Part shown: piece after piece, positions 4,893-7,011 of the stretch
Layout: each line of letters begins with the position of its first letter
How positions within the stretch are numbered: the first letter of the stretch is position 1
Source of the DNA: Pseudomonadota bacterium
Lineage (GTDB): Bacteria; Pseudomonadota; Alphaproteobacteria; Parvibaculales; Parvibaculaceae
Assembly: GCA_021780275.1 (NCBI GenBank)
Contig: JAJXZC010000404.1
Coordinates: 1 to 7,011, forward strand
DNA: 7,011 nt
Direction: 5' to 3'
Translations under genes and position numbers: made by a program
Notes under the pieces: generated by a model
The model's input: only the letters and a program-made list of their open reading frames with translations
Databases searched by the model: none
Told to the model about the DNA's origin: nothing

Positions 4893-4923
4893 AAAAGTCT
4901 GGTGCAGAAATCTGCACCAGACT
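4893..4923 (-). terminator. perfect 13-bp inverted repeat, probable minus-strand terminator
   Basis: AGTCTGGTGCAGA (4896-4908) and TCTGCACCAGACT (4911-4923) are perfect inverted copies separated by two bases, leaving an effective 4-nt loop. On the minus strand the stem runs into TTTT (plus-strand AAAA at 4893-4896). It begins 16 bp after the stop codon of the minus-strand gene at 4940. There is no T-tract on the plus-strand side. Confidence 0.65.
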
Positions 4924-5382: not shown

Positions 5383-5406
5383 CGGAAGCCTCGCCTTAGC
5401 CAAGAG

Positions 5407-5432
5407 TATATGATAATAACCTTTATCATATA
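5407..5432. promoter_or_regulatory. perfect inverted repeat, candidate operator
   Basis: TATATGATAA (5407-5416) and TTATCATATA (5423-5432) are perfect 10-bp inverted arms around a 6-bp spacer TAACCT. It lies 22 bp upstream of the ATG at 5455 and 116 bp from the divergent start codon, and it contains -10-like hexamers (TATGAT, TATCAT). An A/T-rich dyad of this size is typical of an operator for a dimeric regulator overlapping a promoter. The regulator is not identified. Confidence 0.5.
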
Positions 5433-5454
5433 CAATTTGGGAGGGATTTTGGGA

Positions 5455-5946
5455 ATGCTAGTCGCTCGTGAACAGTTGCGTTTCGTCGAAGCGCTAATCG
5501 CGCAATTTGGAGAGCGCGCGTTCGCCATGCAGCCGATGGAGACGATCCAAGCGAGATATATCGCGATCGTTTCGATGCTGCGCTCTATTGGCCACGTTTT
5601 TCGAAAGGTAGATTGTGACACGCCTGCAAAGAGGGCATGGGCAGACGACCAATGGTCATCGCATTGGAGCGGAGAAGCAATTTTCAGAGAATTCATTGAG
5701 CCGAACCGGAATGCGTTATTGAAAGAATTCAGGGGAGGCTTGACGCTTCGGTCGCCGGGTATGAGCTCTTCTGCTTTCGTCGCCAATCCGGGACACCCGG
5801 AAGGATGTTCGACCGTTGTAGATTTTGACGCAGTCGAATGCCGTGATTCGCAAGGGAGATTAGTTTTGCCGTTATTCAAGTTGGCGGTCTCCTTTTGGGA
5901 TCGAATGCTGAAACGCGCCGAAGTGGAGTGGAAGGTGGGGCAATGA
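5455..5946 (+). CDS. unrecognised 163-residue protein, first gene of the integrase-linked unit
   Basis: The frame is open from 5410, but the ATG at 5455 is preferred because GGAGGG (5440-5445) lies 9 nt upstream and the ATG at 5410 falls inside the inverted repeat. The product is soluble. The first 50 residues look helical (EQLRFVEALIAQFGERAF, IQARYIAIVSMLRSIGHVF). A segment IFREFIEPNRNALLKEF (77-93) carries an RN pair that faintly recalls HEPN-like helical proteins, but no Rx4-6H active-site motif is present. The C-terminal part looks mixed alpha/beta (TVVDFDAVECRDSQGRLVLPL) and ends in a basic helix. I do not recognise the family. Its stop codon overlaps the start of the truncated integrase by ATGA, so translation of the two was probably coupled. 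Confidence 0.65.
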   Translation: MLVAREQLRFVEALIAQFGERAFAMQPMETIQARYIAIVSMLRSIGHVFRKVDCDTPAKRAWADDQWSSHWSGEAIFREFIEPNRNALLKEFRGGLTLRSPGMSSSAFVANPGHPEGCSTVVDFDAVECRDSQGRLVLPLFKLAVSFWDRMLKRAEVEWKVGQ

Positions 5947-6071
5947 ATCATTTAGCCCTTGCGTCGCTCATTAGCTCCGCGCTTGTCGCCGCCGCAGGGA
6001 TCCGCGCCCAGACTCGTTTTTTTGAATTCTTCGTCCCGAACATCCACGACCCGCACACGCGCCGTTTATGA
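5943..6071 (+). pseudogene. truncated integrase N-terminus (42 codons)
   Basis: The frame from ATG 5943 to TGA 6069-6071 encodes a 42-residue peptide starting MNHLALASL and ending RFFEFFVPNIHDPHTRRL. With one gap it matches the first 43 residues of the integrase at 6508 at about 23 positions, including RFFEFF and PHTRR. At the DNA level, TTTGAATTCTTC (6021-6032 and 6589-6600) and CCGCACACGCGCCG (6051-6064 and 6619-6632) are identical, each pair 568 bp apart. Homology stops after 6064, where the integrase would continue with AYVRAA. It is a remnant of a related but diverged integrase and lacks all catalytic residues. Its ATG overlaps the TGA of the preceding gene. Its stop overlaps the ATG at 6068, but the next gene probably starts at 6095. 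Confidence 0.82.
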
Positions 6072-6094
6072 GATATCATTGGAGAGATGAGATC

Positions 6095-6511
6095 GTGAAA
6101 ATTGAGCTTCACCGAGTTCCGGTCGATGAGCTTCTACATCACGTCAATCCGTTGAATGCGACACTTTGGGGATGCGATCCGATTTCCGAGCCTGAAATTC
6201 TGGCGGCGGCTGAAAACGACCAACTCGAAAGCGAACCATGGGATCAGGCAAAGGGCCGCCTACAGGGTCCTGAAGGACGGAAATTCCACATCGAACGCAT
6301 TGCGCACTTCGTCAAGATTGGCCTGCCGTGTGATCAATTTCGTGTTCAGCTAGACCTGCAGCCATCAGCCGGCAAAGAAATAGGCATCCTCAACGGAAAT
6401 CATCGGATAGCCGCAGCTCGAATTCGGGGCGATGCGACAATCGATGCGCTCCTGTATTTCTTCGATGCGGCCGATATCACACGATTACTCCCTGGGGCGC
6501 GCAAGCTGTGA
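6095..6511 (+). CDS. ParB/Srx-like (ParB N-terminal fold) protein
   Basis: GTG at 6095 is preferred to the in-frame ATG at 6068 because GGAGAG (6081-6086) lies 8 nt upstream, while the ATG has no such site. The product is 138 residues. It begins with KIELHRVPVDEL, the strand-turn typical of ParB N-terminal domains. Near the C-terminus it has ILNGNHRIAAARIRGDATIDALLYF (98-122), the GNHR-type box II of free-standing ParB/Srx-like proteins, followed by a strand. The middle (35-90) is divergent. There is no helix-turn-helix or dimerisation domain, so it is not a plasmid partition ParB. Members of this fold include nucleotide-binding and hydrolysing enzymes, nucleases and sulfiredoxin, so the activity here is open. 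Its stop overlaps the integrase start (GTGA). Confidence 0.7.
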   Translation: MKIELHRVPVDELLHHVNPLNATLWGCDPISEPEILAAAENDQLESEPWDQAKGRLQGPEGRKFHIERIAHFVKIGLPCDQFRVQLDLQPSAGKEIGILNGNHRIAAARIRGDATIDALLYFFDAADITRLLPGARKL

Positions 6512-7011
6512 CCACTCTTCCGGCCCTCGTAACCGATCGCGCCCCTGCCCTCGTCTCCGCCGGGGGCGAACGCGCCTCGTATCGCTTCTTTGAATTCTTC
6601 ACGGCGCCGATCAGGAATCCGCACACGCGCCGCGCCTATGTGCGCGCCGCACATGAATTCTTCGCCTGGCTTGAGGCGCATGGCGTGACGCAGCTGGCGG
6701 CGATCGAGAGCGTCCATGTCGCGGCCTATATCGAGCAGTTGCAAAAGGCGCGTTCGGCTCCAACCGCGAAACTTCGTCTCGCGGCGCTGAAACATTTGTT
6801 CGACTGGATGGTGAACGGCCAGATCATGCCGACCAATCCCGCCGCCGCCGTGCGCGGGCCGCGTCATATCGTGCGGCGCGGCAAGACGCCGGTGCTCGAT
6901 CCGGTCGAGGCGCGCCAGCTCCTCGACGCGATCGACACGACAACCGTGATCGGCCTCCGCGACCGCGCCCTGATCGGCTTGATGGTCTATTCCTTCGCGC
7001 GCATCGGCGCG
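6508..7011 (+). CDS. tyrosine recombinase/integrase, 5' half (runs off the window)
   Basis: The start is GTG at 6508, overlapping the stop of the ParB-like gene by four bases. The visible 168 residues contain the core-binding SAM-like domain, from RFFEFF and NPHTRRAYVRAAHEFFAWLEAHGV through YIEQL, APTAKLRLAALKHLFDWMV and the NPAAAVRGPRH linker. The catalytic domain begins around RGKTPVLDPVEARQLLDAID and continues with GLRDRALIGLMVYSFARIGA. Arg165 in FARIGA is the expected first catalytic arginine. The remaining H-x-x-R and tyrosine lie outside the window. I recall the full-length family as roughly 300-340 residues and common in Rhizobiales, where it accompanies mobile DNA. No frame disruption is seen in this half. 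Its N-terminus is duplicated in the remnant at 5943-6071. Confidence 0.9.
   Translation, partial: MTTLPALVTDRAPALVSAGGERASYRFFEFFTAPIRNPHTRRAYVRAAHEFFAWLEAHGVTQLAAIESVHVAAYIEQLQKARSAPTAKLRLAALKHLFDWMVNGQIMPTNPAAAVRGPRHIVRRGKTPVLDPVEARQLLDAIDTTTVIGLRDRALIGLMVYSFARIGA

Follow-up and report, generated by a model that had tools for sequence, protein, structure and literature searches.

The 3′ end of the window, by which we mean the whole 7,011-nucleotide stretch of DNA that was analysed, reads as two stacked modules, a core site, a gene and an integrase stub being fused to a half site, a gene and a second integrase. We put the probability that this arrangement is a module-stacking scar, left by replicon fusion and a deletion, at about 0.54. 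A module would consist of a dif-like core site, at least one small gene and a Xer-like recombinase gene overlapping the stop of the last small gene. Two module-bearing replicons would have fused, either through the recombinase acting at their sites or by homologous recombination, which would have placed the modules in tandem, and a deletion would then have taken the 3′ part of the first integrase together with the left half of the second site. The architecture is real and recurrent; the system is likely of the Xer/dif type with an integron-like slot, and the window is likely one scarred, stacked example of it.

Layout of the window 3′ end

Four overlapping reading frames, all on the plus strand, make up the 3′ end of the window, and the features are as follows.

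5406..5433, plus strand: core site of 28 bp, GTATATGATAA-TAACCT-TTATCATATAC, with perfect 11-bp arms and a 6-bp spacer
5455..5946, plus strand: first slot gene, 163 aa, whose stop overlaps the start of the stub by 4 bp
5943..6071, plus strand: integrase 5′ stub of 42 codons and a stop (ATG at 5943, stop at 6069-6071)
6021..6032, plus strand: 12-bp block TTTGAATTCTTC, with a second copy at 6589-6600
6051..6064, plus strand: 14-bp block CCGCACACGCGCCG, conserved HTRR codons, with a second copy at 6619-6632
6065..6076, plus strand: TTTATGAGATAT, matching a second core site in its right half, where the stub meets the second module
6095..6511, plus strand: second slot gene, 138 aa, with a GTG start and a stop that overlaps the integrase start by 4 bp
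6508..7011, plus strand: first 168 aa of a Xer-like tyrosine recombinase, with a GTG start, running off the window

Both slot genes therefore overlap the next integrase start by the same 4 bp. The open frame of the 163-aa gene permits an alternative start at 5410, within the core site, and the second slot gene has an alternative ATG at 6068 that would yield 147 aa, GTG 6095 being most likely its start. The G+C content was 51-57% in both slot genes and the stub and 66% in the integrase, and the spacer of the core site departs at two of six positions from the family consensus TGTCCT. A search for a near match of the window among plasmids found none. Upstream of the slot, positions 4896-4923 form a perfect inverted repeat, AGTCTGGTGCA-GAAATC-TGCACCAGACT, which could be a terminator, a repeat or another recombination site.

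The initial annotation had described a small gene with an integrase stub on one side and a related, apparently intact integrase of that family on the other, and this layout was borne out, the integrase being open to the window end. The identical 12- and 14-bp blocks that it reported occur on the plus strand at the listed positions only, at an offset of 568 bp. Its figure of about 23 of 42 shared residues came out slightly lower, at 21 identical residues of 37 in a local alignment and 22 in a global one; the likeness itself is clear, as the two copies had a local score of 46, whereas none of 2000 codon shuffles exceeded 33, and their DNA was 69% similar along 86 bp (E 9e-6 for a comparison limited to these two stretches). 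The stub was only 50% identical to the window's own intact copy, whereas two Methylocystis integrases, L052 and L003, matched it at 62% and 57% identity; this agrees with the claim that a recent duplication would have left the copies more alike. The "163-residue gene" placed between the integrase copies was, however, misassigned, since a length of 163 residues is that of the gene preceding the stub (5455-5946).

The 6095-6511 gene, labelled "ParB-like" in the initial annotation, had no Pfam or NCBIfam match at E 0.01. Its product carries a GNHRxAAAxxRGD motif common to two relatives, and we take the ParB label to rest on that motif and on the general features of ParB domains; the structural model (pLDDT 62) gave no usable fold match. 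A 138-aa database protein (P0001) was 99% identical to this product, and further relatives were found at 40% (P0002) and 27% (L004) identity. For the 163-aa product, 20 proteins matched, with 96% identity in one case, and at E 0.01 nothing was obtained from Pfam, NCBIfam or PADLOC; its AlphaFold model was helical (pLDDT 91), and a HEPN fold was considered. Fold searches returned no reliable relative for either slot protein. It had been proposed that the 163-residue gene would be found directly before such an integrase, and this was negative in all four relatives inspected (L166-L169, L167 being a weak one), none of which had such an integrase or site within 1.5-2.5 kb of flank. This gene family thus also exists outside the slot.

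The recombinase, its putative site and the gene slot

The integrase fragment of the window matched PF02899 (E 5.6e-10) and NCBIfam XerD (E 5e-16, well below the equivalog cut-off), the catalytic part lying mostly outside the window. The plasmid integrase L003 matched XerD (E 8e-30) and XerC (E 8e-29), both again well below the equivalog cut-offs; the integrases are thus not XerC or XerD themselves. The family profile also matched the XerD, XerA and XerH structures (1a0p, 5hxy and 5jjv), whereby the recombinase, judged by its sequence, appears to belong to the Xer family in the broad sense, and L003 scored 34 bits against the integron integrase model, for which the cut-off is 265. Among plasmid records, 285 matched the window integrase at E 1e-5, 88 of them with at least 60% identity, and one relative came from viral contigs. 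In many short integrase N-terminal ORFs (P0012, P0015, P0031, P0032, P0035, P0048, P0049, P0051, P0052 and others) the frame ends exactly ahead of the Trp in EEFLAW, which would fit a change of TGG into a stop. In P0071 the integrase N terminus is in frame with what is apparently its own C terminus (AADEVSLAEVERIVI), an internal deletion; the longest contig there has 130,393 bases.

The first lead to a site came from three plasmid integrases (L001-L003), each preceded by a different small gene that overlaps the integrase start by 4 bp. Before these small genes lies a palindrome that is present in the window too, and which the initial annotation had not included although it is the usual left boundary in relatives. 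This core site is a 28-bp Xer/dif-like palindrome of 11-6-11 geometry with the family consensus ATRTRTGATAA-TGTCCT-TTATCACATAT, and from the architecture it is probably the site of the recombinase. Relatives were drawn from a genome-collection scan (best 80 of 125), whole-genome searches, one viral contig and plasmids. Together with the window they made up 154 sequences, from which 103 distinct loci were kept; 51 were dropped for having no usable integrase start, for having less than 400 bp upstream or for repeating a locus. To be counted as a site, a sequence had to have arms with no more than one mismatch in 12 and a spacer similar to TGTCCT in either orientation; spacer conservation is therefore in part definitional. 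By this definition, a site occurred within 3.5 kb upstream of the integrase in 85 of the 103 distinct loci, window included, singly in 84 and twice in one (L039), where the second is of another palindrome type. The spacer was inverted in 8 of 86 sites, and conservation upstream of the 28 bp dropped within a few bases. The other 18 loci had no site in the upstream stretch; in some of them this stretch may be too short, as many loci from the whole-genome searches reach only about 1.5 kb upstream, and L104 may carry a diverged site, ACAGGACATAA-TGTCCT-TTATGTCCTGT.

Outside those upstream stretches, arm matches with at most one mismatch were found only twice in 827,855 bases. When the 103 loci were scanned without a given motif, 109 palindromes of 11-6-11 geometry came up; 50 of these had TGATAA arms, and no other arm ending accounted for more than four. 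Furthermore, all of eight complete plasmids, chosen from the site matches, had one perfect-core site and one such integrase each, a pattern that fits a plasmid resolution system; altogether 76 plasmid records matched the site. Within 300 bp after the integrases, the best scores for a second core site were in median no better than those of shuffles, a scan that strongly degenerate sites may escape. In L024, a perfect 11-6-11 palindrome, GCACGTGATAG-ATTGGA-TTATCACGTGC, lies 5 bp after the integrase (about 2475-2502), that is, on its far side, with nearly core-site arms (TGATAG/TTATCA) and a different spacer; it is unexplained by the one-site picture. The best downstream scores, those of L027 and L073, were rejected as second core sites, as they belong to a different palindrome of the GTAACATTA-CGTCCT-TTATGTTAC type, which in L027 (5935-5962) stands between the integrase and a large gene that looks helicase-like by eye and in L073 about 113 bp after the integrase, before genes that look, by eye, type I restriction-like. 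Another palindrome family, ACTCTTGATAA...TTATCAAGAGT-like, was seen on the same kinds of replicon, at 10980 in L163, at 15807 in L164 and in the upstream regions of L033 and L039, and is perhaps the site of another recombinase. Among the open-licence PMC papers listed by literature searches, no title or opening of an abstract described this arrangement, and the 18-base core had no matches.

Between the site and the integrase lies a slot of zero to four small ORFs of at least 40 codons. Among the 85 site-bearing loci the slot was empty in 15, held at least one ORF in 70 and at least two in 25, and all of these 25, the window among them, had a single full site. The 100 slot ORFs fell by BLAST clustering into 60 families, 46 of them singletons; ORFs were called mechanically and a few are surely not genes, the window stub being one of these. 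The first ORF, by its mechanically called start, began 7-20 bp past the site in 47 of 70 loci, and the last overlapped the integrase start in 59 of 70 (by 4 bp in 49, by 8 bp in 10). These data support a recurrent gene-integrase slot, and the recurrence of a variable small gene with an integrase that the initial annotation envisaged does exist among relatives. Of ten slot proteins scanned, Pfam named four (DUF6650, DUF2513, DUF29 and a PIN domain) and PADLOC none at E 0.01, and plasmid annotations directly before the integrase include a TIGR02391 protein and a GIY-YIG nuclease. The ORF pairs in L035, L043, L099, L105 and L024 look by eye like toxin-antitoxin pairs, the PIN domain of L043 being the one profile-based case. 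On one plasmid (L155, 2498-3140) a site and a DUF2513 slot gene stand without an integrase after them, an ATGA overlap and a short stub faintly resembling an integrase N terminus remaining.

Slot content changes among close relatives. The last slot family differed in 94 of 112 locus pairs whose integrases are at least 85% identical (none of them at least 95%). The left flank was similar up to the site, with different slot families, in L008/L038 and L002/L032, and similar to within about 70 bp of the site in L034/L040, L029/L040 and L007/L025. Likewise, four Pseudomonas plasmids have a type I methyltransferase flank in common, of which that of P. avellanae (L032) goes on with a different gene and the other three with related DUF2513 genes, one of these three being without the integrase. 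The right flank past the integrase was mostly unrelated. Since an unrelated gene follows the site directly in any case, a loss of left-flank similarity at this point or close by does not demonstrate an exchange there; the comparison shows the slot to be a place of change. The link between the integrase 5′ end and the slot gene was weak: across 55 loci, 14 of 2000 permutations were as extreme.

The proposed scar and the competing explanations

The half site TTTATGAGATAT stands directly after the stub and is followed by GGAGAG and GTG 6095. It departs from the right half of the core at two positions, one of them invariant (C to G), and ends 18 bp before GTG 6095, within the usual spacing. It scored 13.85 bits, a value reached at a fraction of 4.4e-5 of 1,021,530 other positions, so that a 60-bp stretch would contain about 0.003 matches of this quality by chance, a figure for a match that was scored after being noticed. 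With this half site and this spacing, the second slot gene and its integrase look like a normal module minus the left half-site, and the 163-aa gene and the stub resemble, in sequence, a normal module whose integrase has lost its 3′ part. The half site is a single case, seen in the window only: among 28 internal ORF starts of other loci none had one (best score, 3.0). On its integrase side, the junction had no likeness to the core site by eye, and a left-half scan gave nothing above 0.9 bits.

Stubs were present in 3 of the 103 loci and derive from two events. Two Caballeronia loci (L018 and L009) carry an integrase stub of 44-49 bp between slot genes, 93% and 88% identical to the integrase 5′ ends of L022 and L026, L009 having a DUF2513 5′ stub in addition. 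As these two have the junction and the sequence after the stub in common, they represent one event, and no half site was found at their junction.

The strongest competitor of the stacked-module reading, though still somewhat unlikely, is that related plasmids recombined in the ordinary way, by illegitimate or homologous recombination, which would have made both the swaps and the stub, the palindrome being a dimer-resolution site with no role in exchange. The one-site, one-integrase pattern of the eight plasmids suits dimer resolution. The stub junctions of the two events are not alike, the left flanks and integrase bodies of some pairs are similar enough for a homologous crossover, and the 163-aa gene has relatives that do not stand near such an integrase. 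By itself, however, this process explains neither why the variable place is the slot between site and integrase, with such regular spacing, nor the half site at the junction.

The initial annotation proposed an integrase-mediated insertion of a gene and its integrase into the 5′ end of a resident integrase, with the 14-bp block as the exchange point, and this we consider improbable. The block is common to the stub and the intact copy at the constant offset; however, it encodes conserved residues, the HTRR of the family, and no core-like arm was found on the integrase side of the junction. Moreover, the only other stub junction found, that of L018 and L009, breaks at about codon 15 and not at codon 42, which leaves the integrase 5′ end unsupported as an exchange point. 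In a search for short-protein stubs, 2855 of 7985 candidates scored were matches, and among the best 120, which were read by eye, a good number diverge just past NPHTRRAYxR; this clustering is biased, because the ranking profile ends there and the set includes proteins cut short by frameshifts or contig ends, and the search was set aside as unusable for breakpoints. The cassette idea behind that proposal thus fared unevenly, as breakpoints differ between the two events and many other gene-integrase pairs exist.

It is also quite doubtful that the palindrome is an operator or promoter element of a gene-integrase operon and not a recombination site. Its place 7-20 bp before the first start in most loci would suit such a role, and TTGACA was matched at four or more positions, at a suitable distance, in 21 of 85 upstream stretches versus 16% in shuffles, yet the 11-6-11 geometry, the asymmetric spacer with its inversion in some sites and the Xer-like recombinase gene that follows all speak against it. 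A tandem duplication of the integrase with decay of one copy, suggested by the same protein family and orientation, was rejected, as the stub is closer to a Methylocystis integrase (62%) than to the window's intact copy (50%) and a different gene stands before each copy.

If the module-stacking reading holds, the recombinase could delete the first gene again between two intact tandem sites, and the second site should therefore be missing from surviving stacks. The relation to Xer, the dif-like geometry, the one-site pattern of the plasmids and the report on Acinetobacter taken up below lead us to infer that replicons bearing such modules can fuse and that a stack lasts only without its inner site. 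A still broader proposal, which we hold tentatively and judge rather unlikely as a whole, is that of a widespread integron-like platform, in Proteobacteria and beyond, in which a Xer-like recombinase would capture, swap and stack single genes at its own 28-bp site; the slot would be bounded by that site and the recombinase start codon, captured genes would form an operon with the recombinase, and surviving stacks would have lost the inner site. If the site is active, many plasmids would have a gene-exchange slot. Its contents, for the most part families without a known function, would then offer a ready catalogue of accessory functions of plasmids, and with only one site the mechanism of capture would be open to direct tests. 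A site that served dimer resolution alone would still define a resolution system for many plasmids.

Comparison with known systems

The closest likeness is to Xer/dif and plasmid resolution by XerCD/dif, with which Cre/loxP is also grouped. A recombinase related to XerD, XerA and XerH, a dif-like site of 11-6-11 geometry and one site per plasmid (in the eight plasmids) are common to both, whereas the scores here lie far below the XerC/XerD equivalog cut-offs and a variable gene slot stands between the site and the recombinase.

For the XerC/D (pdif) modules of Acinetobacter plasmids, plasmid fusion and resolution at Xer-type sites have been reported (PMC5790767). Xer-type sites on plasmids are thus a common feature; in the present loci, by contrast, there is mostly a single site with an adjoining recombinase gene, and the slot genes were not seen between two sites. 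A gene flanked by two Xer-type sites, as in pdif modules, was not found, 84 of 85 site-bearing loci having a single site in the 3.5 kb upstream; L024, with its palindrome of nearly core-site arms just after the integrase, is an exception.

Integrons, including those with delta-attI cassettes (PMC12901181), likewise have a tyrosine recombinase beside a site where diverse genes gather, and platform remnants among the genes. Here, however, the slot genes are co-directional with the recombinase and usually overlap its start codon, so that the slot is closed. Finally, the integron-like elements in rulB (PMC4542609) resemble the present system in combining a XerC/D-like recombinase with variable genes on Pseudomonas plasmids, and differ from it in their reported insertion at a GAT in rulB and in their three recombinase genes.
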